Assembly: GCA_034401795.1 (NCBI GenBank)
Contig: CM067370.1
Span: 59,259,333 to 59,323,332 of the forward strand
Reading direction: 5' to 3'
Origin: Chaetoderma sp. LZ-2023a
Taxonomy: Eukaryota; Mollusca; Caudofoveata; Chaetodermatida; Chaetodermatidae
DNA length: 64,000 nucleotides
Shown: piece by piece, positions 21,701 through 45,600 of the stretch
Numbering within the stretch: position 1 is the stretch's first letter
Layout: the number at the start of each line of letters is the position of its first letter
Made by a program: the position numbers and the translations under genes
The notes under the pieces: generated by a model
Seen by the model: only the letters and a program-made list of their open reading frames with translations
The model's database searches: none
Told to the model about the DNA's origin: nothing

Positions 21701-24700
21701 AGGGTTAAAAAATACTAATTCTCCAAAGTTAATGCAGCATTGCCGTTTCTGAGTAATCATGTCTTTGCTTGATAAAGTATTGTTAACAACTTAACATGTT
21801 AAAAAATATTACTCAAGGCATTTTCTTTGTCGTTTTTATTAGCATATTATTTAAGGGCAACCTTGACTTGTGGCGGGCAACCTGAAAATGGGTGAAATGG
21901 CATTACGGGTTGCCCTGGGGGGGCAACTAGATTTTTTCATTTATTTCTACCCCTGGTAATAGTAATAGATGTCATGTAATAGAACCCATCCCTGCTATTG
22001 ACTTCACCTGTCTCTGTTACAGTACATGGTTATGTACTAGTGAAGATGTTTTGTTCCTTTTATATTCTGTATTATCTTTTGCTCAAGATTTTGTCCCTTT
22101 GGATTTGCTCATAAATTCTTCATTTTCATCTTGCAATATCATTTTCATCTCTGTATTCATGTCTTTGAAGCTTTTCATCCTAATGCTTTCTGGCAGACTC
22201 ATTCACTCAGATATCTTATTTTGTATTTGTTTTCTTAGTGTCTTGTTGGTGTGTCGGTGACGTCAGCTGCTTGTCCAAAATGGCGCCTCTATCTACTGGT
22301 TACTTTAGCAATTTAAATTGAGGATATCTTTTTTATTTGTTGGCATAAAATTGTGCTTTTGGTCTCAAATTAATGCGGAAAATTAGTACTTTACATCAGA
22401 TGCATAAAATCCCCCAGTGGAATATCCCTTTAACCTGAAACCACACAGCTTACATCATGTAAAATTCACTGCTTGCAAATCAAATCATATTTGCCGAGTG
22501 TCATCCTCTTGCTTTCCCACGGCTAATAGATGACTGTATTTTATGCCCCTATTAGCAAATGGTTACTCACTAGATGATAATATTAAACTGCAAGTCAAGA
22601 ACAAATTAGTTTAGGACAGTCACCAGATTTCGCACAATGGCGATCTTACGGACGGTTTTTCGTTCGTTGTTTTTTTTCGTAATGGTTTTTAAACCGTCGC
22701 CATAAACACTGTGAGCCGGTGTGAAACCCAGTCCTATATCTTTCTATCTTCGTTCTTGCATCTAGCTCTAAATACTCTTTATATCTATGTTTTTCGCACT
22801 TCTACCACACATAGTCTTTTCTGTAACTCTATTAAATAAGATTTGATTGGTAACATTAGCAGTTGCACAAGTTCATAAAGTCCTGTCAAATTTTATTTTG
22901 GTTATAATGGCCGACGACACGGATTAATTGATTGTCAATGTATGTAAATCGTGCACACACCCACACTGTCAAGCATTAGGAACCTATATATTAGTTCAGT
23001 GTGATGACTTGGATGTAATTGGACAAATGAAACAAAGTAATTTCATCTCGTATACATGCACATATGGTGCGGAGTCCTGCCTCAGTACCATGTATAAAAC
23101 AATGGTAACCAATGTGTCCTCTCCAGACCACCAGCTGCATGTGGGTCATTCCATGTCAAATCACCCAAAATAAATTTAAAATGAAATGGCACCACTTCCA
23201 ATTTTTATGAAATTTGGTCCATAAATAAGTTCTAGCACAAATACTATATATGCTAAATTTTAGTTCTGTCTGACAAAAGGTTTCAGAGTTATGGCCCTTT
23301 GAAATCTCAAAAAATTCGCGGAATTGGCCAAAAACGAGCTGAAATGCTTGGATTTAAAATGCTATAACTTTTGAACTACTGCACCAATATGGATGAAATT
23401 GGTGTCATTTGAAAGGAAATGCCATAAGGATTCTGAATATGCAATCAGATTTAGAATATGAGTATGTTCACTTCTCATGACCTCTTGACCTTTGATTTGA
23501 CCTTGAATTTGACCTTGTGGGCAACTTGCGAATGAAAAGTTTGGTATGCCAAATTTTACAGACATATGTTCTTTACATTATATTAAAGTTTCCCAGGTAT
23601 AATGTTTTTAGTTTTTTCACATTTTTACACAGAAGTCCATATATACGTTCAAAATTGTATAAAATTTGTGATTACTTACTCAGTACATGTTCTTTGTGCT
23701 ACTGTCAAGCTAATACCTAGGCATGATGTTTAGAAAATGCCTTCTCTATTTTTAATAGCTATGTCTGTGAGATAGTATATCCTCTAGATGAAGTGGATGT
23801 CAAAGACGGAGCTTGAATGCTTTGGAGAATGTCATGTTTCAATCCAGCATGTGTCACGATTGGTTGGCCAACTGAACTGCTTAGCTGGACCATTTGGATG
23901 CATGAAGTTTACTTTGAAGTCTCCAAACTCCTCTGAAATTTCCTCGACTATACCAATCCACCACTTACACTCATAAACACACGCAACATATGTTTGTGGC
24001 TGAATGGAAGCTTTCATGTCTTCTTCATTTTCTGGATCACTACCGGTATCTTCACAATCGCTATCATTGTCAAATTCAGTATCACTATGGACAGGAAACT
24101 TGATATGTTTAGTTGGTACAGCTTGGGAACTCAGTTTGTAAACATCCATACTGTTAACAGATTTTGGAATGAAGCGATGAAGCTGTTGTGTGCCTTTAAT
24201 CGTCTTCGCCATCTTAAATCTGTGATCCAGTGAAGCCGAAATTAAATCAACTTGGCTTGAATCCACGAAGATAAAATGAATACCACAGACTTTTTCTATG
24301 CAAAAGTCATACATTTGTCTTGCTGTTAAAATTTGGTTATTTACAGCTCTCTGTAAACTGGCTTTGGCGACTAGGCGTTTGACTGTTCCTCCAATACCGT
24401 CGCAGGCACTTTTACCGTGTGATGTCGCGAAAAAATTCCATTCAGCCGCAACTTCAAAATCATGCTCATGATAACACAGATTCAGAAAATTGTATTTATT
24501 TTTATATTGGGCTGCACATCCATCTGTGAAATAGTTAATTTTTTTCATTTCAGGAAACTGTTGTTTAAGATATGGTATGACATATGTATTGAACGCATAG
24601 ACTGATGATGCTGAATGTTCTTTGGTATCACTTACTACACACATACTACGATGTTCAAGTTGACCATTTTCCAGACGGCGGTATGCTACATAAGGATGAA

Positions 24701-27700
24701 GAGTAGCTTGAGTGTTTTCCCAATGGAAACTTTGTATTTCATCCTGGATGACGAACGAATAGTTCTCAGCAAAATCGCCTTGTAGAATGACATCTTCCAA
24801 TGGTTCCATGTTTGCTTTCAGTGATTTCATGTACTCGCTCTGTGATTTTGTAGTAAAATGGTGGCGTGTCAGGGTTACTATCACATCACCCACATGATCT
24901 ATAAAATCTTCTGTAGGCTCCTTTATGGTAATGAGTTCGGTCCTATCAACTTTAATCCACTGCTTATATTCCACCTCATCTACTAAATCTAGTTCTTCTA
25001 TACTGCTTAAATAATCAACAACTCCATGCTTTCCAGGACACTCTTTACACTGTCCCATCATGCATTTCTCTTCATTTGGGGAACAGACACATTGATTCAT
25101 CAGGAATTTAATATCTATGTCCTTACTTTTAATTGTATTACTGACCATTAGACTAGCATTTTGATGGTATTTACATACACAAACCGAGTGTGTCCCAGAA
25201 GCACCTGCTAATACACACCACCTAGGTCGCAGCGCTGCAAACGATGAAAATCCAATAGTCTTCTCTGCATCCTTTTTCCAGCTTACATACAGTTCCTTGA
25301 GATTAAGTAGAAGCATCCTCTTTTGATGATAATGCTTCTCACCATTCATATCCCTTACAACTACTCTGTCTTTCATACCTGGACACATCCTACTATTGTC
25401 ATCACTTTCATAAAAACCTATAACGTTATCTTTAATTTCCTGCGATATAGTGTCCTTTGTTTTTGTCACTAACACTGAGCACACCTCTAATTTTCTTTAT
25501 TTCACGACTCTTCTTGACTAAATAATTTGTTGCACCGAATTCTTGCATAGTTCTTTGAATTGTAAATGGAGAGACAGTCAAAATCTGGACACGTTCTTGG
25601 TAAGAACTTGATTGCTTGAACTTTTCCTTCAACTCTCCGATCATTGACTCGTATAATTTTAAGTCTTGCATCTTAGAATGTGTTTTTGTTCTTTTACTGG
25701 TGCATGCCATTTTCATAAATAAAATTTGCAAAAACTAGGAACATTATACCTGTTAAATTTTAACATAATGTAGAAAACATGTATAGGTGTAATTTGTCAT
25801 ATCAAATTTTTTATTCGCAGGTTGCCCACAAGGTCAAATTCAAGGTCAAATCAAAGATCAAAAGGTCATCATATATAAACCTAGTTCTATTCTCATTCTG
25901 ATCACATATTTAGAATCCTTGTGTTATTCCCTTTCAAATGACACAAATTACAACCAATTCGGTCCACTAGTTCAAAAGATATAGTTGTTTGAAGTTTTGC
26001 TGTTCGGACATTTTTTTACGTTTTTTGTGATTTTTCACAACTTTTAAAGGGCCATAACTCTTGAATGGTTGGGCAGATCGCGATAAAAATTAATATTTTT
26101 GTTTTTTGTGACAGACATAATATATAGACAAAATTTAGTCAATATTGGTGTCGGTGCCATTTCCGCCCTTGGGTGATATGAGCTGGAATGACCCATGTAT
26201 CCTACATGAGGAGCATGGGAGCATATAATCATCATATTTAGGCAATATAAGGCTTTCATATACTAGTTACATGACTGTATATGTATACTACATGTAAAGA
26301 AGATATTCAAAATAATTTATTGGAATTTTTTACCTGAATATTGGATATCAGAATACTTTACAAAACAAATTACTATTATTTCATGAATAACTACATAACT
26401 ATGCTTAGTTTTATTGTCTCTAGGCATAGTTTGTAACACAAGGATAATTGTCATAAGCTCACTTGGCCAGTCTGGCCAGGTGAGCTAATAAATGTGGTTA
26501 TTTTAAAATTAAATCCTGGCGCAACTAGGATCAAATCCGCAAAAATAATGTTTACGAACGTCCACAGATATTCAACTACGATATATTTTCGCAACTTTAC
26601 GGGATCTTTACTTTTTGTATTACAAAACCGCCAATCAGAGAGCCGCATTAAGTAATAATTTTAATATGACAATGTCTAAGATGGATGCCACAAATTGCGC
26701 AAAAGAGAAGAATTTTATCAACTTTCCTTGGGCAATTCTCGTTATGTCCCTCAGTAAATTTTCCAGAATTATTGAATTCGGTTTCCAAGAAGTCTTATAA
26801 TGAAGCAGGTCATAATATTTGTAGAAATCTGAGGGATTTAATATGGATTAGTATGGATTTAATAGCGACTGATTTTGTGCGTTGATGAGATTTAGCACAT
26901 TCTCTGGCGATATGAAGGCAAAATTTTTATTTAACCATTACGATTTTCGTGATAATGTCAAAGAAATCTAACATGCTCAAACGATAAAAGCCATAAAAAT
27001 TAATATGAATACTTTAGTTCAACAATTGCAATTAATGATTTATTTTTTGTGACATTCGGTTGTTTTCGGATTCACTGTGATTGTAAAGTAATGCAGCCGA
27101 ATATAACCCATTCTTGCGTTACCAGTGGGTTAGCTAGCCATCGTAACACTGTACTGTCTTACAGTGACAGATATTATCGACGTACAGTATAGTATCGACA
27201 CAATACCGATACCGAGATAATTGGGCCCAAAAATACCGATACCGGTAACGAACATAAAATATAAATACCGAACAGCTCTACTGGGAGCAACAGCACCCAG
27301 TGAAATTAGTTTCTAAATATTCAACAGAATGGGTATTAAATAGTTAAGACATACAATTTGTACAACTTGACAGACTTAAGAATTTATGAAGACTTAATTA
27401 CATGATCATGTACGCCGATGTCAATCAATTACGTCATGACTGATGTTACATCATTTATGATGTAATTGATTGAACTCCGCCTACATGTGACATAGTGGAT
27501 TATGACATCATATGACTGAATGATAAGTTGGATTCCTCAATTATCATGGGTAATTGGACATTATTTTTAGCAAATAAAAGACTACTAACCTCATAGCTCA
27601 CTGGTCCTCTAGCTCTCTGAAAAAAGAACACATCATATTTTAATTAAATTATGTTGTTAACAAGTAGGAATCACATATGGTTATTTGTATTGGACAACAG

Positions 27701-30278: not shown

Positions 30279-33200
30279 AATAATAATAATAAATGGTGTT
30301 GTTTTCTACATTGTCCTTTACCATATGAAGGTATAACAGTCAGTGCATTGTAATTGTACCATCAGATCATCACGCTACAGTATGCATGAACGATTACTGT
30401 ATTCTGAGGCTGTAGTAGTAGAAATATCCTCCAGCTGCAATCAGTCCTTTTTCTCTGTCGTCCCTCAAGAATTGTTCAAGAAAATTTCTACTTTCTCAGA
30501 GAAAATGTCCAGTTTCAAACCAAGAGAAAATTATTTTGGAATACTTATCACTGGAATGACTGACTTGATTATCAAGCCAGTCATTCCAGTGATAAGGTGT
30601 CAAAAATAGTCTTCTCTTGGTCTGTAAATGGATATTTCCCAGGACCACTGCAGATGCTGTTTTTGATCGGCTTTAGCATAAAAAGGATAAACTAGTCACC
30701 CCACCACCCTCCATGTTATTTCCTAAGGCCAGCAAACTTTCAAAATTAGCCATTATTTACGGTTACATGTCCTGGTTGGGGCAGCGTGTTTGGGACTCCT
30801 TGCTATTGATCAACTAACTAGTCACCCATAACAACCACAATTTAATTCTGAATGCAAATAAATTTTTATATCAAGTTTGTTTATTTTAAATCTAGCTGCG
30901 TTATGGTGCAGACAAGATTAGCCTATAGAGATACACTAGCATTCTAAAGACTTTCTGTGGTATACTGGCAAATGAATAAATATTATTGCTATAATAATAC
31001 TTGCCATTTTGAATTCTAAAATTTGTTTTAATGGAGGTAAATTTAGAAGCTAGTTTGACTGAAATAATTTACAGATAGCAATTAATCACTTACAGAAGTT
31101 AGTTAAATCATTTCCAAAATAATAGCAGAGATTCAACTATAACAAACATGTATCATTGACATATATAAAACAGAAGGAAAATTGTTAACCCTCTTTGTTT
31201 AGAAGGGAAATTCCAGTTTTTTGCTTCCTATTAGTACAGATCTAATCTTAACTAAATTTTGGTCAACGGATGCTATTGTGCTCAGATCCGGAACTCCCAT
31301 TTGGAATTTTGATTCATAATTTTTTGGGTCAAAATCTTATATTTTATTAAAAATTTACCGGAAATTGTTAAATTGCTTCTTCTCCTTACCCTTTTGACCG
31401 ATTTCAATAAAATTTGGCTGGAAGGTTCCTATGGTCATAGGTTATAGAACTTGCATTCAGAATTTCGATTCGTAAATATTTTGGGTGAACAATTTAGATT
31501 TTTTTTTTAATTTACCGAAAATTGTCAAATTGCTTCTTACCATTTTGATCGATTTCAACCAAATTGGGCTGAAAGAATCCTAGGTCATAGGCTCTAGAAC
31601 TTCCATTCAGAATTGTGTTGCATAAATATTTTGAGTGAAAATCCTAGATTTTATTACAAATTTACCGGAAATTGTCAAAAAGATCCTATGATCATAGGTT
31701 ATAGAACTTGCATCCAGAATTTTGATTCGTAAATATTTTGGGTGAAAAACTTAGATTTTATTAAAAGATTTACCGGAAAATGTTCAAATCGCTTCTTACC
31801 ATTTTGACCAATTTGAACAAATTGGGCTGAAAGAATCCTATGGTCATAGGCTCTAGTTTCCATATATATACAGAGTATATATATATACACCTGTGCAAAA
31901 GTTAAGCACCAGCAAAAACAATAGAACGTAGAAACATGATGGTACAACTAGGCTGCCATACTTTTTGTCCCCGCGTTAGCTGACATAATTCCAAGTACGA
32001 AATGCACATGCATGCATGACTTCACGCCGCTTGATGTCCGTGCGTGGCGGGAAACAGCACACGTGTTCAGTTATGTAAAAGTCCAGTTTGAGGTGTAGAA
32101 CATTACATACAGATTTAGGCGACAAGATTAGGAATTTTGTGTTCATGACCGTGGTTTATTTGTACAGAGAGAATTAGCTCTTGATTGTGAACCGCTATGG
32201 CAAGATGAAGGTCAAGTGATCGTGTGAAATGGCAAATCATAGGCATGCATACCACTGGTATGTCATGCAGAGAGATTGGCAGACAGCTGAACATTAACCA
32301 TACTGTAATCAGTCGTTTGATTGCAAAACATGGGCAAACTAACGAGGTGAAGGACAGGCCTAGATCTGGAAGACCGAAGAAGACTACTGCCCGTGATGAT
32401 CGAGCCCTAGTACGCCTTGTTAGATCTCCATTCACCAACAGCAGAGTGCTCAGCCAGCAATGGGAAACGCGCAATAGAGTGTCAATGTCTACCGTCAAAA
32501 GGAGACTGTATGCTGCTGGCATGAAAGCTAGGAGACCTGTCAGACGTCCTCTCCTCACTGCACACCACAAAGAGGAGCGTCTGAGGTGGTGCAACGAAAG
32601 AAGACACTGGAACATGAGATCCTGGAGACGGGTACACTGGTCCGATGAAAGTCGGTTCCTGCTTCATGCCACAGATGGTCGAACTCGTGTATGGAGGTCC
32701 AGACGCACGGCGTACGACCAACGTAACATCATGGAAGAAGTTCCATTTGGTGGAGGTTCCGTTATGATATGCGGGTGCATCTCATTTGATTGTAAGCTGG
32801 ATCTGTTGACTGTACCTGGAACACTAAATGGACAAAGATATCAAGATTCCATACTGGATAGAGTTGTGGTCCCTCATTTTGTAAATCATGCACCTGGAAC
32901 CCACCCTATATTCATGGATGACAACGCCCGACCACATCGTGCTAGAGCTGTGCATGAATACCTCCGCCAGAATGCCATCGAAACCCTACCACGGCCAGCA
33001 AGGAGCCCTGACATGAACCCTATTGAGCATATCTGGGACATTCTGGGAAACATGGTGAGAAGGAGGGATCCTCCTGTGCAGAACCTACAGGAATTAACAG
33101 ACACACTCCATCTTGAATGGCAACGAATACCACAATGGCGTATCAGTCGGTTGGTGACCAGCATGAGACGTCGTGTCCAGGCCGTCATCCAGGCACAAGG

Positions 33201-33538
33201 TGGATATACCCGGTATTAATAATGACAGTCTCAAACTCGTGCACAGATGTTAAACTTCGTTTTCAGACACCATTAATGACAATCTAGCCACGTGTGTCAA
33301 CTGTAGGGCAATAGTTGTCAGTTGTGTCAACGTAACCATATTCAGGCCTCGTTTTCAAGTTCAAACAAAAACATACAGTGTTTCCCCACCATCATAATCA
33401 GCATTCCTCTAGTTGCATTATTACCTCTTGCACTAAGATGGATGGGTACATAAATGTTTATGCTATTGCTTTCTTCATAGCACATGAATATACCCTCGCA
33501 TGTGCGTAAAAATAGGGTGGTGCTTAACTTTTGCACAG

Positions 33539-33634
<96 letters not shown>

Positions 33635-36600
33635 GATATGAGTTAATGCCCATCTCATTTATACATAATTAGACATGTATATGTACAGGATGTCAAATAA
33701 GTCTGGTCTCATATCGAAGTTTATTAATGCAAAGATCTATTCAGATAGATTTACTGTTTGCATGGTGTGCATTGTGCATTCCACGCACGCACACATTCTT
33801 TAACAGTTTCGATGTGTACCTATAGGAGACAACATGAAATAAAATTAGCATTAAGTGTGTCCTTCATGTGTTGCATAATAGTGAGTGTGGGTGGGTGGGT
33901 GAGCAGCAGTTGCAGTGCTGCTCAACCGCGGCGGTGTTCACATTGTTGTTGTTGTTGTTGTTTTAGATGAAGTTCACATCCACTCAGCACATGTGCTCCC
34001 ATCCACCCCTACCAGCACAGTCGGACAGCTCATCACATAGACTGTAGTAGTAGTCCCCGATAACGTAGCTTACCGGGAAAGTATCGGCGCGATATCGGCT
34101 CGACATCAGCCCAGTAAGCTGCATTATTAAAGTGAGTTTATGCCATGGCGACTGTCCGTCGTCTGTCAAATTTTGCTTTAAACACTACTCCTCATTAACC
34201 GCTGGGCCAATTTCAACCAAATTTGGCTAGAAGGCCCCCGATAGTAGTAGGCTCCAGAATTTCCATTATTAAAAATCTACCGGAAATTGTCAAAATGCTT
34301 ATTATTTTGACCACTTTCAACCAAATTTGGCTGAAATGACCTAATGGTCGTAGGCTCCAGAACTCCATTCAAAATTTTTATCCATCCATTTTTTGGGTGA
34401 AAATCTTAGATTTTATGAAAAATGTACCGAAAATTGTCAAAATGCTTCTTACCATTCCGAGCGATTTCAACCAAATTTGGCTGAAAGGTCACATAATGGT
34501 CGTAGGCTCCAGAAGTTCCATTCAGAATTTTGATTCATCAATTTTTTGGGTGAAAATCTGAAATTTTATGAAAAATGTACTGGAAATTGTCAAATTGCTT
34601 CTCCTTACCATCTTGGCCGGTTTTAGCCAAATTAGGCTGAAAGGATCCTATGGCTATAGGCTATAGAACCTCCATTCAGAATTTTGATTTGTCAATTCTT
34701 TGCGTGAATTCTTTCATGAAAAATGTACCGGAAATTGTCAAATTGCTAGTCATCCTTAGCTGCTTGACAACCAAATTTCAACTAATCGATTCTATGGTGG
34801 TAGGGTCTAGAAATCCTGCTCAGAATTTTGATTGATCAATTTTTTGGGTGAAAATCTTAGATGTTATGAAAAATGTACCTGAAATTGTCAAAACACTGCT
34901 TCTCCTTAGTTGCTGGACAAATTTCAGAATTTTGATTGGTAAATTTGTGTGGCCGTCATGGATTTTCCGAAAAGTATCCATCATATATCTACTTAATTAC
35001 AAATGGTTCAAATGCTAATGGTCCAGGTGAGCGCCATAGGACCTTGGGCCTCTTGTTAGCTCACCTGGCCTGAAAGGCCAAGTGAGCTTATGCCATGGCG
35101 GCTGTCCTTTGTCCATCCATGATCCGCCATCCATCCGTCGTCTATTCGTCAAATCACTTCTCCTTAACGGTGTAACCGATTTCAACCAAATTTGGCTGAA
35201 AGGATCCTATGCTGGTATCCTCCACATTTTTTTTCAGAATCCTTATTTCGTCAATTTTTGGGGGGGAAAATCATAGATTTTATGAAAAATTTACCAGAAA
35301 TTGTCAAAATGCTACTTCTCGTTAGGTACTTGATGTATTTCAACCCGATTTGGCTAGACTGATTCTATGGTGGTAGGTTCTAAAGCTTCTATTCAGAATT
35401 TTGATTGATCCATTTTTTTGGTTAAAATCATGGATTTTGTGAAAAATTTACCAGAGATTGTCAAAATGCTACTCCTCATTAACCGCTTGACATATTTCAA
35501 CCAAGTTTGACTAGATGGATTCTATGCGAGTAGGCTCCAGAACTTACATTAAGAATTTTGTTTGATCGATTTTTTGGGTGAAAACCTTAGATTTTATGAA
35601 AGATTTACCGGAAATGGTCAAAATGCTACTCCTCCATAGCCGCTTGACATATTTCAACCAAATTTGGCTAGATGGATTCTAGGTTGATGGTTCTAGAACT
35701 TCTATTCAGAATGGGCAAGCCTATGGATTAAGTCGATCTTGACTATATATGGGCAGAAAAAAACCAGATTGACGGTTCCACCTTTGAAATTTTTGGAGGT
35801 TTGGCGGTATGGTCAAACATTTTTACCGGTTGACCTGTATTTTACCGGTTGGGGTCAAGTTTACCGGTTGTGACTTTTTTACCAGTTGTGCCTTTTTTGT
35901 CGCTTGTAATATTTTTTGTCGGTTGTAACTTTTTGGCCGGTTCTGCCATTTTTTGGTGGCTGGGCAACTTTTTTGCCAGTTGTGGTCATTTTTATCGATT
36001 GTGAATTTTTTTACCAGTTGTGTCCATTTTGGCGGCTGGAACGTTTTTGGCCGTTTAAGATTTTTACCGGTTGTAGGTCATTTTGGTGCTAAATTTCTAA
36101 GGGTTTTTGTAGGTCAAGTTCATAGAGGTATCGCTAATTTATTGGAGTTTTTGGCTGTTTGGATGGGTAATGATCATATGTGGTCATCGCTGAATCAAAA
36201 ATGACCACATGATCAGAACCAGACGATGAAAACTCCACCCATAAACCCAGCAGGATAAGGCGCGCCCCCACCCCACCCCTCCCCCCCACTGGCGGCTGCC
36301 CAGTACGTTGTTATTAACCTTTTATCTCCAAGCTGTCTCTAAGAATCCATCTTTCCAGTCAGATAATATATATCTACACATCTTTTGGCGACATCATCAC
36401 TTTCGCCATAGACGTCACACATTGACGTCATACCCATTGTCATCACCTCGCATCTTTTAAAGATGCTATTAAATATGGCACTTTGACGTGGACTTCAGCA
36501 CAAAGCTATTTTCCCCTTTTTAAACTTAAATTTAATTGCATTATATAAAGAACAACAGACACATACTCACCAAGTTGTTGTGCTTCTTTATTTTATTCAT

Positions 36601-39600
36601 TTTTTATTTTTCAAAACAAATTCTTGAAACACAAAGAAATATACATAACTTCAATATCTAACCAGTTTTGATTTTGACTGTGTAACCGCGATACATATTT
36701 CACAGTTGAATATACCAAACCATTTACCAAGGACGTCCTACACACTCCTTGTCTATCAATCCAAACACCCACACCATAGTTGCCATATCAGAAGAGTGGA
36801 GCTCAAAAATGCCCACTACCAGTTGACAAAAGTTCGCCTCTGATGAGTTACGCTCAAGAACGAAACGCCATGAAGTCTGAATCAAAAACAGTGATTACAC
36901 ATGATCATTACCTACACAAACAGCCCAAAACTCTCCACTAAAGGAGCAATACCTCTACGAACTTGGCCTACAGAAACCCTTAGAAATTTATCATCAAAAT
37001 GACCTACAAGCAGTAAAAAAAACCTTACCCGCAAAAAAGGTTTTTCCAACCACCAAAATGAACAAACGTTAAAAAATTTACAACCGGTACAAATGACCAC
37101 AATCCCCTGTTTAAGACTATATGCTCGGCCTCAATGTGGTGCAGGGGTGTAACCCACTGGGTGTCAATCCAGACATTTGGAGGGGCTAACCAGAGCATTA
37201 TGCACAACGCTAATGGAATGACACTTGGGAGATCGAATCAACCGAAATGGTGCTCGCCCTGTGAGGATCCGCCAGGCAGGTGCAGCGCCGGGCTCCACGC
37301 CTCGAAGGAGCCCACCCTCAGCTACTGGAGGTCCCATCAACTCGTCTTGTGGAGCCAGATGAGGATGGAGAGCTACCGGCCAACTGAAAGAGAAGACCAA
37401 ACCCAGAGAACCCCAGTATCAACATCATGCACTGGAACGCAGAAGGGGTTACCAACAAGAAATCAGAGCTCGAACAGTTCCTGTACGAAAACAACATTGA
37501 TATCTGCTGCATCCAAGAGACACACCTGCAAGAAGGAAAACCATTTAAGATCAGAGGTTACCAGATTTTCCGGTGTTATCGAAGAGGAAGAAAGAAAGGC
37601 GGGGTGATCACCTTGGTCCGAAACAGCGTGAACGCCAGCCAGATCAAAACCTTTATGGGAGAGGCAGAATATATCAAGATCAAGGTAACAACCAGCAACT
37701 CTGTGATTGACATTGTCAATTATTACTGCCCTAATGACAAGAATCTCTCACTTGACACAATCCAGGTCCCGGACTGCCACTTCCTCATTGCAGGAAGACT
37801 TTAATAGCCAGTCCCAGAGCTGGGGATACAGAACACTTGATAAACGAGGAGAAGACATTGAAGCATGACAAGATCAAAAGCACCTTTTACTTGTCAACGA
37901 TCCCACAGATCAGCCTACCTTCTACTCGCGCCAGTGGCACTCGACAACAACGCCGGACTTGGCATTTTGTACAGAAGACATTCACAGCAACCTCAGTAGA
38001 GTGGTCGGATAGCAGTTAGGAGGAAGCGACCCCCGCACAGTCCTCTCTCTCTTTCTGGAAGTATTTCGACAAGTTCACCTCAACATCCAAGGTGGAACTA
38101 CAAATGGGCAAATTGGAGTCTGTTCGGCATTCGTTCCAGTGAGCGTACCCTAAATATAGCAGTAGAAGGGAGAAACATCAACAATGTGGTCAAGGAATTT
38201 AATTCAAGTATCCTCAAGGCTGCCAACGAAGCGACTCCTCGAGGGGTCAGGAAAAACTACCGCCCCTACTGGACAACAGAACTGCAAGCGGCACATGATA
38301 AACTAGACAAGGCCAGAGAAGATGCAGAGGGTAATCCCTGTCATGAAACCCACTTCACGCTACAACAAACTAAAGCCAGGTATCTAAAGACCAAGCTGGA
38401 GGTCAAAAGAAGAAGCTGGAGGGAAAAGACGGCAGGGTTTAATTTAGAGAGCCACAACAAAGCTATGGAGACTGACTAAAGCACTGAATGATGAGGGTGT
38501 CGGGGGAGAGAAGATTACTCTTGAAGAAGATGGATAAACACTGTCAGGAAAGATGGCTGCAGATGCCTTTGCGAAGGCATATGCAAAAGAAAGCAACATT
38601 TCTATACCACGAATGCGTCAAAAAGGTTAGAAAAGAGCAAAAGGAAAGAACAGACACCAATAGGGTTGGGCGATATTGCTCAAGGTATGACGATATCGGT
38701 ATCTCATTAAAATACCGCGGTATCACGATATATCGTCATTTGGGCGAGGTGTGGAGTTAGGGTGTAAACATAGAATAACATGTATTTCAAATTGTTGTGT
38801 CTGCAAGTTATTTTCATTAAATTTGTTGCATTGAAACCGTAAATTAAGATCGCCATGATTACCATTTCCGCATATTTAATACACGAAATTCCACACTTTG
38901 ACACCCTTCAATATACAGTTTAAAGCAACGAGTGTAATGCAACTAACCCATCACAAATAAGAAAAATAAAGGATTTTCTTCTGTTCTTGTGTTGTATTAT
39001 ATGTTATCTTTACCTCACGCTTTACCTCACGACAACTGTCAAAAGACTGAGCAAGGAATACGCATTAACTTCATCTTGCGGAAAGGAATTCTGCAGAACG
39101 AAATCTGATTGGCTGCCGTATCATACTTGAGCCAATCAGAATTCACACTGCAGAATTCCGACAGCTGTTATCACGGCCGCTGCTAGCATAGACGATGCAA
39201 ATTAATAAAAATAACGCTGTATGATTTTGAACGAGAACGAGCGTGAAGACTGGAAACAATTATATCAGATTTTATTTGGTCTGTAATATTAAATACTAAT
39301 TTGCCCCATTGTAGACCTATTCAAATTCGCTCACTACTTAGCGGTCCTATCCATTGATCTCAAGGCGTAGCCGGGATGTGTGAAATTAACCCAGTTAACT
39401 CTGCAGCCAAGACTGCCACAACTGATAGAAAACTGGAAATAATTAGGCATAAATTCTTTATTTTAAGGCCGTTTCACACTTAGAATAAATCCGTAATGTT
39501 ATACGTGGAATGAATTTTGATCTGATTCGTTTAAAAATGCTAAATATATTGTATAAAGTAACATAAAATCGCATAACGGTAAAGCAAGAGATTAACTGCC

Positions 39601-42600
39601 CCCTCACCCACCGTTCCAAGCTGTGGTATTGATAAGGGATTAAGTGTGTGTGGTTTCCTATCAACCTCAAAAGTTTTAAAGTTTAAATCTTTCACGGTCA
39701 GAAGAATGTTTAACCATGCAGATCAATGACTAATGGATAAATAGCTTGACCTGTAGTAATGACGTCATCAGAATGAAATGTGGGTAGTGCAAATGGTATT
39801 CCCCACTGACTAATACTCAGAATGAGGCAAGAAAAAACATGGCGTCGTCTATTTATGCAATTATGAAAAGTGAACAACAAAGGATTATTTTGTACTTTAA
39901 GTCATTTTATTAGCGCAAACAAACCATGAATTAAATGAACACAGATTATTTTGGAGTTTATTAAGTTTTTATTACCTTAGACAAAGACTAGATTATTACT
40001 TAAAGACTATTACTGGACCGAATAGAGGTAAGAGTATGACATTTCTAACTTAGTTATTTATATTATGCTCACAGTTAAAAGTGCAATATCGTCCTGTCGG
40101 TATTGACGATATTTACAATTTTTCGTAATTATGACGATTTCGGTATCGGTATTCGGTATATCGCGATATTGACAATAATATCGAAAAATCGCCCAACCCT
40201 AGACACCAACACTCATGATGCAATGAAAGTTGACATTAGTTTAGCAGAACTGAAGAAGTCTATCCGCCAATTGAAGAAGAAATCTCCCGGGCCAGATGGC
40301 ATTACGAATGAAATGATCCAACACCTTGGTAATGCATCTCTCCGCAAGTTGCTAGACATCTTTAATCTCAGTTGGACGAATGGAGAGGTTCCTCAGTGCT
40401 GGAAGGAAGCCAGAATGACTCCTATTCTGAAAAAAGGGAAGAACAAGACGAAAGTGCTGAGCTACCGTCCTATCAGTCTTACAAGCTGCATATGCAAGAC
40501 CATGGAGCGCATTGTCAACCAGCGGTTGCAGTGGTACCTGGAGTCGGAGAACATTATAGTTTCAGAGCAGGCTGGCTTCAGAAGATACAGGAGCACAGAA
40601 GATCAAACAACACATCTTGCACAGGTTATAGAGGACTTTTCAATCCAAGGTGATGCTAGCTGCCTTTATCGATCTGCAGAAGGCATTTGACAAGGTGTGG
40701 AAGGATGGCCTCCTCGTGAAGCTCCGGTGCACAGGCATCGGTGGCAACCTGTTCCGATGGACCAAGTCATACCTACACAATCGCAGAGCTAGGGTGCTGG
40801 TGGATGGACAATCTGGACAGAATGTATTGCTGAGACAAGTGGTACCACAAGGCAGAGTATTATCACCAACTCTGTTCATACTCTTCATTAATGACATTGT
40901 AGCAGAGCTTCCCAATGGGATCCAAGCAGCCCTCTATGCAGATGACCTCGTACTCTGGTGCACCGAGGAGTACACAACGACTGCCACGTACAGAATGCAG
41001 CCCACCTTGGACAGAATTACAGCTTGGGCCAATCGCTGGTGTATTACCATCAACAAAGAAAAATCATCAGCCATGCTATTCTCACTGTCCACCAAAACCA
41101 AGGTTGGCAATCTGACACTGGGCGGTACTCCACTCGAGTACGAGGACCAGCAGACATACCTGGGAGTCACCTATGACAGAAGATTAACATGGAAGGAGCA
41201 CATCCAGAATGCAGAGGCAAAGGCCAGAAGAAAGCTAAACATCATGAGGAAGCTGGCAGGAACAAAGTGGGGTGCCAATGAAAGGATCCTCAAGACCATC
41301 TACCTAGGTGCCGTACGACCACACCTTGAGTATGGATCCAGCTCATGGATGACAGCAGCTAAATCTCATCAACAGAACCTCGACAGAGTACAAAACCAGG
41401 CACTGCGCATCATCACTGATGGAATGAGATCAACATGAATAGAAAAAATGGAGCAGACAACAGGCATCCCCCCCACTTAGTAAAGGAAGGGAATGCAAAG
41501 CACTGATCTGCAAAGTTCAAATCGTTCAACAACCACCCGATGAAAATCAGGCAAGCACAGCTGTCATCAGGAAGACTTAAAAGATCAAGTTTTGTGAAAG
41601 AGACAAAAGCACTTCAAAGGAAACACCAAGAAATGTTGCCAGCACAAATAGAAGACCCAAACCACACCCTTGATCCTCCACCCTGGGAAAACAAACTAGA
41701 GAGCATAGCTATTCGCACCATAGTACATCATCTCACAACCAAAGATGAACACAGTGATGTGAGCAAGAAGGCCCTGACCCTAGCCATGCTGAAAGAAATG
41801 TACCCTCAGGAGACATGGATAAGGATCTACACAGATGGATCATCCAAAGATGCAATTAGGAGCGGAGGTGCCGGACTGCACACACAGTATCAAAACGGAC
41901 AACATGAGTCAGCTGCAATACCGACAGGCAAACACTGCACAAACTACAGAGCTGCGAAGCACTGGTCCATGCAGCTAATACCATCAGCAGAACAGCAGAC
42001 CCTATTGCACAGATTGTCTTTTTATCTGATGCCCGCTCCGTCCTTGAGGCTATCACCAAAGGTAAGCTGCCACAACTTGAAGAAGCACTACAAACCATCA
42101 AATGCTTTCGGATAGCATTGCAGTGGATCCCCTCACACTGTGGAGTCCAAGGAAATGAGGAAGCAGACAAGATGGCAAAGGTGCGTGCAGAAGAGGATCA
42201 GACAGAAAACATGGTTACACATACAGAGCTGAAGACTATCATCAAGTCACTCTATAGAACACCTCAATCAGAAGATGCCTACCATCATCTCTCGAGGCCA
42301 GAGCAAGTGACCATTTTTCGTCTCAGAACTGGACATAACAGACTAAACCAACACATGTACAGGCGGTTCCACCTTACGACATCGCCCGCTTGTCCTTGTG
42401 AAGAAGCAGAACAGACCACAGAGCACATACTTCAATGTTGCAGTACGTATCAGCTGCTGAGAGAAGAGATCTGGCCTTTGTCAACCTCTTTTTTTGAAAA
42501 GCTGTATGGGCCTGTGGAAGAACTGCAGAAAACCACAGATTTCACCTTGAGAACGGCTCTCCAAAAATATCACAACCGCCAAAAATCGGTCAAAACCGCC

Positions 42601-45600
42601 AAAAAAAGCACAACCGGTAGTCACAACCGATAAACTTGACCCCACCGGTAAAATACAGGCCAACCGGTAATAATGTTTGACCATACCGCCAAACCTCCTA
42701 AAATTTCAAATGGGGGAACCGTGAATCTGGGCTTTTTCTGCCCATATATAGTCACGATCGACTCGATCCACAGGCTCGCGCCCAGGAAGGGTATAAAAGG
42801 GACGAAACTTCCAGTCCAGATCATTCAGACTTTTGGTCTCACAGTGCGACCAAGCATTAGGCTAAATAACCTTCTACAAGTAGCTCATATAACTGACTCC
42901 ATTGTTATTCAGTTATTGAACAATGGATTCATCCAGCAAACCATTGCCACAGGAAACGGAGACAGTCACATTGTCTTCACTGTCCACACCGAGCCTAACC
43001 TCAGATCGGACACTACTCGCCAGGTCTAACACACCTGAATGCCACCATAAAACCACCACGGCTAACACCACCTGCAACCGAAGGAATGGCAAGCTCTTCA
43101 ACAGTGGACCCTCCAAGACCACCAGCTGTTAGAGCACAAAAACGGAAAAGGGCTGGAAACACTACGCACCTTCAAAATGAATCCAAGAACATCCGATATG
43201 ATATCGATATCAAACCTCCATAGGAATAAACGATACGACACACCTGTATCCACACATTTCAATAAACATGGACATTCTAGAACTGACATGCAGTTCAGAA
43301 TTATCTAGGTACTCTCATCAGACCCGGACGATGAAAACGCCACCCCATGGAGAAAACACAAAGAATGTCATCGGATACACCAGCTCCACACAATGGAGCC
43401 TATAGGCATAAACCTACCAGGATAAGGGACCCCTCTTCTCCGGGCTAACACACCCCATACGGGTGGACATGCCCAGTACGTTATTATTACCCTTTTATCT
43501 CTAAGGTGTCCCTAAGAATCCATCTTTCCAGTCAGATAATGTATCTACACATCTTTTGGCGACGTCATCACTTTCGCCATAAAAGATGCTATTAAATATG
43601 GCACTTTACGTGGCCTTCCGCACAACACTATTTCCCTGTATTAAATTTAAATTTAATTACACTATATAAAAGAACAACATAGACACATACTCTCCAAGTT
43701 GTCGTGCATCTATTTTATTAATTTTTTATTTTTCAAAACAAATTCTCGAAACACAAAAAAATGTACATAACTTCATTATCTAACCAGTTTTGATTTTGAC
43801 TTCGTGTAACTGCGATACATATTTCACCGTTGAACATACCAAACCATTTAGACTAGCCAAGCACGTCCTACACACTCCTTGTCTATCAATCCAAACACCC
43901 ACACCAGTAGTTGCCATATCAGAAAAAGGTGGAGTCCAAAAATGTCCACTCCCAGTTGACAAAACTTCGCCTCTGATGAGTTCCACTCAAGGAACGAAAC
44001 ACCATGAAGTCTGAATCAAAAACAGTGATGAATAGTGGGGCCTTATCCTGCTAGGTTTATGGGTGGAGTTTTCATCGTCTGGGTCTGATCATGTGGTCAT
44101 TTTTGATTCAGCGATGACCACACATGATCATTACCCACTCAAACAGCCAAAAACTCCACTAAAGGAGCAATACCTCTACGAACTTGACTTATAGAAACCC
44201 TTAGAAATTTATCACCAAAATGACCTACAACCGGTAAAAACCTAAACCGCCAAAAATGTTTTTCCAACCGCCAAAATGGACACAACTGATAAAAATAACC
44301 ACAACCACCAAAAAAGTTGCCCACCCACCAAAAATGGCAGAACCGGCAAAAAACTTACAAGCGCCAAAAAAGGCACAACCAGTAAAATAAGTCACAACTG
44401 GTAAACTTGACCCCCACCGGTAAAATACAGGTTAACCGGTAAAAATATTTGACCATACCGCCAAACCTCCAAAAATTTCTAATGGGGGAACCGTGAATCT
44501 TTTTTCTGCCCACATATAGCACAGGAAAATTACCCAAGATAGCCACCAACCTGTATGAGGCTTACGAGGAAATTGACAAAAGAATATGAATTTTTGCATT
44601 AAAAAGCACATTTTCACGCAAAATAGTGACCTTATAAAGATGAATGCACCAACAGGCACATCTGCGTATTATGACTGAGACATACCACAAGTTTCATTAA
44701 AATATCTGAAGCGGTTCTGTATAATATTCTGTTAACGAGATATTGTGGACGGACAGACACGTGCGATAATTACTATAGGGCACCTTCTGGTGTGGGCTCT
44801 AATTAGTAATTACTCATCCACAAATAATTTTATACCCACTAATAAGTGTTCAATACAAGAGGCTCACGAGGCCTGTATCGCTCACCTGGACCATAGGCAT
44901 CCCAACTAGAATGGTCATTAACAATAAGTAGAACTCTAATGAGTTGACCAGACTTTTAACAAGAAAACAGAGATCGTTTCTTTATCTCTCAACTTCTCTT
45001 GAACAAACTTTAATGGCCCTTAGTCATCCATATCATATTTCCAAAATTTCGGCCCAATACGTTCAGTGACTCTGGAGACGAAATTGCTTTCATGAAAACC
45101 AGGCCCAACCATTTGGCAAATCAAGTTCCCTAAAAACAAACTTGGTTCCGCTCGTGCCCTAAATGATATTTTATGACTTTTGAATCAATCGCTGTTTCTG
45201 TGAAGATTTTTAGACATTTCTAAAAATCGGCCAAATTCAAGATGGCCGCCAGACAAATTGGCTGATTGGCTTCGTTTGAACAAACTTGAATCTCTACAAC
45301 CTAAGGATGCTTTCTGCCAAATATAAATGAAATCAGCCCAGCAGTTCTAGAAGACATTTTAAATTTCCCATGGCTTTAATATGGGAACTTTTGGCGGGAA
45401 AATGATCCAAGATGACCGCCAAACCGTTTATCCGACAGTTTTGAAAATTGCAAATTTGAGATCAGAATACTCAAAAACATATATAAAACCAATTTTTAAC
45501 CTCAAAATCCATCAAATAAAAAATTCCAATTTTGCCGCCACACATGCTGTATTTTGATTGGCTCACTGCGGCCATGTTTTTTGATGGATCAACTTCCCTT

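Follow-up and report, generated by a model that had tools for sequence, protein, structure and literature searches.

The Penelope-like element whose remains lie in the window (the whole stretch of 64,000 nucleotides analysed here) probably encodes a discontinuous hammerhead ribozyme of type I that is interrupted in stem III, and for which cleavage is predicted. The catalytic half would follow the pLTR and be composed of the stem I strand GCCU, the CUGAUGA box, stem II, GAA and the stem III strand ACGC, with the substrate half, GCGUC↓AGGC (arrow, predicted cut), placed 440-638 nt downstream of it. Both halves would be united by a 10-bp closing helix, AAGUCUGAAU/AUUCAGACUU (helix P), and by the hairpin UUGGUC..GACCAA. 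The block order, C-G-S in the naming used in the available text of PMC10085705, would be that of a type I hammerhead with a large stem III interruption. The cut would occur after GCGUC at +627 in subfamily A or +626 in subfamily B (positions relative to the core); the insert end (about +675) lies roughly 50 nt further 3'. The window itself holds just decayed or separated pieces of this system.

The hammerhead-like motif in the window

The core motif that a first-pass annotation had placed at 43973-44011 of the + strand is present as claimed when its letters are re-read. CTGATGA, the core block C, occupies 43973-43979; stem II, GTTCC/GGAAC closed by the loop ACTCAA, occupies 43980-43995, with its strands at 43980-43984 and 43991-43995; GAAAC is located at 43996-44000 and GTC at 44009-44011. 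CUGANGA and GAA, the core elements of type I, hence occur there, separated by stem II. GCCT, the putative 5' strand of stem I, is positioned immediately 5' of the core at 43969-43972, and GAA followed by ACAC at 43996-44002 would correspond to the core block G and the 5' strand of stem III, which reads ACGC in the family majority. Both strands were scanned for CTGANGA, a contiguous stem II of at least 4 bp, GAAA and NUH, and the motif at 43973 was the only locus detected in the window; shuffled windows gave a mean of 0.1 loci (60 dinucleotide shuffles), or of 0.05 in a stricter scan with at least 5 pairs in stem II and at least 2 in stem III (60 dinucleotide shuffles). The motif is unlikely to be the product of chance.

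The cleavage site of the motif is a separate question. The first-pass annotation had assumed a local one-pair stem III and a cut at GTC 44009-44011, and had named stem I as the weak point. Weak it is: with the local GTC no stem I pair is established beside the core in the window, so that this triplet is not flanked by both stems, and the flanking bases are U and U, a mismatch, in 34 of 34 aligned units. Moreover, the GTC falls inside the 10-nt stretch AAGTCTGAAT (44007-44016, + strand), the 5' strand of helix P, which is complementary to a distal block. A local minimal hammerhead of the Penelope type, cut after 44011 and perhaps active as a dimer, is on these grounds highly improbable, in spite of the intact core and stem II of this copy and of the precedent of minimal Penelope-like hammerheads without helix III, for which cleavage in dimeric form is considered possible (available text of PMC7761336). 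Since the GTC belongs to a stretch that pairs distally, the hammerhead idea survives with another substrate strand and another cut site. Two further local candidates were rejected: an ATC ending at 44017, which as cleavage triplet allowed just one stem I pair, and a substrate block located 5' of the core, for which no more than 5 pairs in total were obtained in any of the five copies used.

The covariance-model search that the first-pass annotation had suggested as a check was carried out against Rfam, and no hammerhead was matched in the whole window at the gathering score, among the matches listed around both window copies at E values up to 10, or on 18 fetched genomic loci. The Rfam models are compact, and a match across a 600-nt interruption would therefore not be expected of them.

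The Penelope-like element and its copies

The element carrying the motif is a Penelope-like element, as had been suspected from the window. Pieces of the related copy L027 matched the Pfam families RVT_1 (5.7e-8) and GIY-YIG (4e-5) above the cut-offs, and the upstream stretches of L016 and L027 encode a Penelope-type reverse transcriptase (RT) and endonuclease. RT and a C-terminal GIY-YIG domain, tandem or partial tandem arrangement and pLTRs are thus all represented among the sampled copies. The motif is located 3' of the pLTR, as in PAc of Anolis, whose hammerhead, in the available text of PMC11167929, spans the pLTR/ORF junction and follows the pLTR. For PAc it is also reported that C3G and G8C each abolish cleavage and that the double change C3G/G8C brings part of it back.

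Copies were retrieved with the query 43900-44100 from the same 2.44-Gb genome, where 40 of 1059 candidates were scored and all 40 fetched; in a second genome query 40 of 963 candidates were scored, and three of those 40 were fetched later. The fetched loci and the window comprise 43 query-matching units, 41 of them outside the window, with L018/L045, L042/L043 and two tandem units in L009 as near-duplicates. In 27 of the 43 units the same strand carries a GIY-YIG remnant at a distance of 300-900 nt upstream, and several subfamily B copies share sequence about 1.8-2 kb further upstream. Several subfamily B copies also contain stops in the CC-ATG-AAG-TC frame, a candidate start of the element ORF (MKSESK...), and this reading was for that reason not used as evidence. 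Identity between copies drops beyond about +675, which is taken as the insert end. The two tandem units of L009 are 2076 bp apart and show no RT region by eye; this locus is a deletion derivative of the element. Copies without the 5' part that stop just within the next unit would fit what is reported for PAc, whose reverse transcription begins at an internal RNA site (PMC11167929, available text).

Two copies carry block 1, the putative catalytic half, in the window, both on the + strand. In copy 1, pLTR and block 1 are covered by two matches (-522..-457 and -408..+61) at 43518-44034, the pLTR sequence upstream of the motif extending over 43518-43960. The copy is interrupted at 44035-44108 by a piece in opposite orientation, continues at 44109-44519 (+50..+518) and stops before block 2, the putative substrate half. 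The block 2 found at 42822-42867 belongs not to copy 1 but to a preceding partial unit, whose 3' part (+326..+675) is at 42563-42910, + strand. In that unit the 3' strand of helix P, ATTCAGACTT, is located at 42823-42832 and the hairpin TTGGTC..GACCAA at 42833-42853. They are followed at 42854-42862 by GCATT↓AGGC, a decayed substrate block (the 3' strands of stems III and I on either side of the predicted cut site) that reads GCGTC↓AGGC in the family majority. The GIY-YIG coding remains previously noted upstream of copy 1 correspond to a C-terminal remnant at 43243-43422 (+ strand), with 83% identity over 60 residues to another remnant at 29950-29759.

Copy 2 (36345-37100, -522..+264) runs into LINE sequence without a block 2. 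Its block 1, at 36840-36882, consists of the core, a damaged stem II, ACGC and AAGTCTGAAT at 36873-36882. The first-pass annotation had pointed out that copy 2 keeps all core letters although the bases of stem II changed. The core letters are indeed kept, but the change in stem II is decay and not pair-preserving: GTTAC..AGAAC retains three contiguous pairs, fails the 4-bp scan and, being decayed, lends no covariation support to stem II. Neither block 1 of the window continues to its own block 2, and the one block 2 present reads GCATT; the window sequences are therefore best regarded as fossils of the system, in which the decay of block 2 has removed the stem-flanked triplet of the distal reading.

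Some rearrangements around these copies were also observed. The segments 44040-44256 and 36045-36261 both derive from this element; they lie in opposite orientation and are 91% complementary to each other. Minisatellite-like CCGGTAAAA/CCGCCAAAA repeats occupy much of the stretch between the blocks, for example at 44230-44480 of the window.

The distal block and its conservation

In lineages A, B and C the AAGTCTGAAT stretch that holds the local GTC has a perfect complement about 550-600 nt downstream, and the partners of stems I and III adjoin that complement. Block 2, ATTCAGACTT-TTGGTC..GACCAA-GCGTC↓AGGC, is placed about 600 nt 3' of the core and roughly 50 nt short of the insert's 3' end. 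Its full reading, ATTCAGACTT-TTGGTCTCACATCGCGACCAA-GCGTC-AGGCTAAAT, begins with the exact complement of AAGTCTGAAT and continues with a 6-bp hairpin, then the complement of ACGC plus C, and finally the complement of GCCU. The block provides stem I (AGGC/GCCT), stem III (GCGT/ACGC), the 6-bp hairpin and the 10-bp helix with AAGTCTGAAT, and in the family majority a GUC triplet is flanked by 4 bp of stem III and 4 bp of stem I. In 29 of 34 units all four positions of GCCT form standard or wobble pairs with the AGGC of block 2.

Both blocks were detected at the script threshold in 34 of the 43 units. Both window copies are among the nine units without block 2 at that threshold, as is L036, which retains ACCAAGCGTCAGGATAAAT. 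The spacing from the G block to GCGTC ranges from 440 to 638 nt, with a median of 574 (32 units). Two of the three copies fetched after the model had been established contain block 2, with 3/46 differences and spacings of 508 and 526 nt; the third showed no block 2 in the stretch examined.

Comparison of the majority sequences of subfamily A (27 units) and subfamily B (14 units) revealed two islands of near identity, at -60..+63 and at +556..+637. Outside the retrieval zone the two sequences have a mean of 9.0 differences per 70 columns, against 1 per 70 columns at +556..+637, a segment that ends at the stem I strand. The subfamilies were grouped by eye, and 131 diagnostic columns concur for 39 of 40 units; in this check L030 is mixed and L017 set apart, the minimum is the same and the mean is 8.9. 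The search query partly selects for the first island and so inflates it, whereas the second is free of this effect, because most query matches ended at about +61. Lineage C, represented by the single copy L017, differs from A in 56/152, 69/142 and 60/115 columns of the pLTR (37-52%) and in 89/313 columns of the loop; the differences are 1/123 columns in island 1 and 6/86 in island 2. L017 has kept helix P, GCGTC↓AGGC and the stem of the hairpin without change; in the hairpin loop one position differs. Hence three lineages, one of them known from a single copy, with pLTRs that are 9 to 52% different keep both blocks nearly unchanged.

Such conservation could also be explained if both blocks formed a non-catalytic fold made of helix P, the hairpin and stem II, for instance an RT template signal near the 3' end, the hammerhead letters being the legacy of a dead ribozyme. 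The location of block 2 about 50 nt from the insert end agrees with this explanation, as does the folding, in which no other long-range part is as stable as helix P and stem III is weak; moreover, the RNA required for PAc insertion includes the first 172 nt of the ORF, according to the available text of PMC11167929. It leaves unexplained, however, why precisely the letters of stem I, stem III and GUC required by the core should stand beside helix P and be kept in three lineages, and we consider it unlikely.

Statistical analysis of the pairing

The joint fit of stems I and III and helix P within the downstream 620 nt was reached by 5, 0 and 2 of 6000 dinucleotide shuffles in three copies, a total of 7 of 18,000 attaining the observed score in what is a post hoc test. 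The fit of the substrate block alone, likewise post hoc, was reached by 1.5-3% of 4000 shuffles. The distal pairing was found after the failure of the local model, and this order of events, together with the modest rarity of the substrate block by itself, would favour a chance resemblance in which DNA-level or promoter conservation is accompanied by accidental pairing. Given the rarity of the joint fit, and the position of the substrate block where divergence outside the retrieved zone is lowest, we hold a resemblance of that kind to be quite improbable.

Among 28 distinct ungapped rows, 96.2% of the pair cells are standard, and when the partners are slid by 1-3 positions the proportion is just 22.7-44.1%. 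The first-pass annotation had proposed aligning further copies in search of stem I covariation. Copies were aligned, and the search for covariation within them found none: among the 46 pair cells that changed, 15 are still standard and 31 broken. Three double changes occur among the 15 kept cells, all of them in stem III at CpG sites, and they are not clearly above chance; between lineages the blocks are nearly invariant. Changes that break pairs fit the decay of inserted, dead copies and give no covariation support.

RNA folding and a putative upstream masking strand

Folding joins the distal strands once an upstream strand predicted to mask the core is omitted. In unconstrained folding of six native stretches of 583-656 nt starting at -12, pairing probabilities were 0.57-0.72 for stem I, 0.88-0.99 for stem II, 0.51-0.95 for helix P and 0.71-0.95 for the hairpin. 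With a longer 3' flank and without the upstream part, stem I reached 0.56-0.86 in six of seven copies and 0.17 in L009_7847. Stem III is weak in folding (probability 0-0.11), and in short two-block composites the energy model pairs the core GAUG with CGUC instead of forming it. Shuffling of block 2 abolished stem I and helix P, and after shuffling of the loop they partly remained (six shuffles in each of two copies in both cases).

Inclusion of the natural upstream 60 nt lowered stem I to 0.005-0.018 in six copies. In five copies helix P was then at 0.94-0.97 and the full hammerhead fold lay 4-7 kcal/mol above the minimum; in the sixth, L010, a gap in block 2 meant that the pair positions of the script did not fit. 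The strand UAUCAG is predicted to pair with the core CUGAUG at 0.48-0.91 in six of seven copies and at 0.10 in L017, and the string CATATCAGAA was found in 41 of the 43 units. The UAUCAG strand and a small hairpin, AGTGG..CCACT, at about -57..-12 (for instance 43916-43961 of the window), are kept in lineages A, B and C.

Comparison with known hammerheads and proposed role

The nearest known layout is the discontinuous hammerhead of the rodent Clec2 3' UTR (Martick et al. 2008, as presented in the available text of PMC4041007), which is likewise built from two cis strands, about 250-790 nt apart. In Clec2 the strands are separated by an insertion in the stem I loop, with the substrate strand on the upstream side, whereas here the interruption is in stem III, the substrate strand is downstream and the whole is part of a retroelement. 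The arrangement would be the second natural discontinuous hammerhead layout beside that of Clec2.

With the minimal hammerheads of type I reported from Penelope-like elements (Cervera and De la Pena 2014; Lunse et al. 2017; both as described in papers that cite them) and with PAc, the present case shares the type of element, the position after the pLTR, the core letters and stem II, and in PAc, as here, the insertion RNA extends past the cut site (PMC11167929). Those ribozymes are described as local, helix III being either minimal or absent. The ribozyme proposed here differs in its 4-bp stem III, 10-bp closing helix and hairpin, interrupted by about 440-640 nt, and is neither compact nor provided with a local stem I. 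No Penelope-like hammerhead with separated strands was found in the literature searched, which excluded Cervera and De la Pena 2014 and Lunse et al. 2017, and this is not proof of novelty. The metazoan non-LTR retrozymes also have the type I order and are reported in the same genomes as Penelope-like elements; they are short circular RNAs (about 170-400 nt) with compact ribozymes (PMC7229834, available text), in contrast to the RT-encoding element and deletion derivatives studied here.

What hammerheads do in Penelope-like elements is called unknown in the available text of the review PMC7761336. Cleavage at the distal site might serve for processing of tandem transcripts or for removal of the template end. 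A tentative, rather speculative possibility is that a hammerhead interrupted in stem III would act as a check of length and state, in that the substrate strand would be present only in RNA reaching near the 3' end of the insert, and UAUCAG would mask the core until something, perhaps the protein of the element, released it. A hammerhead with strands 600 nt apart would offer a testable link between completeness of the ribozyme, RNA length and the start of reverse transcription, and searches for compact motifs can miss such ribozymes or mis-assign their cut site.

Other elements at the sampled loci and in the window

An abundant GIY-YIG family (L046, L047 and many other places) has an open frame of 906 aa in many rows, includes some opposite-facing pairs 4-9 kb apart and, in one copy read, carries a long (CTCA)n downstream. 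It was tried as an outgroup and rejected as a different element with (CTCA)n, on the basis of one copy of 3.3 kb; CTGANGA was absent from the + strand of two stretches of a copy of this family. A loose local hammerhead definition applied to the fetched loci and the window (332,705 bases) gave three matches, rejected as chance-like by eye, and a search of viral contigs with two patterns gave 0 matches. Fourteen GIY-YIG frames with a spacing of 384-385 nt and compact open frames were observed at G000:C18:2868883-2874082, a contig that may be of bacterial origin.

In the window, copy 2 gives way to LINE-like sequence at about 37100, and a LINE with matches to Exo_endo_phos, RVT_1 and, slightly sub-threshold, RNase_H lies between the two copies at 37388-42633 (+ strand). 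An open frame of 554 aa at 23832-25496 (- strand) has a sub-threshold match to DUF7717 as its sole match, and one of 336 aa at 32209-33219 (+ strand) contains the Tc1/mariner-type domains HTH_Tnp_Tc3_2 and DDE_3.
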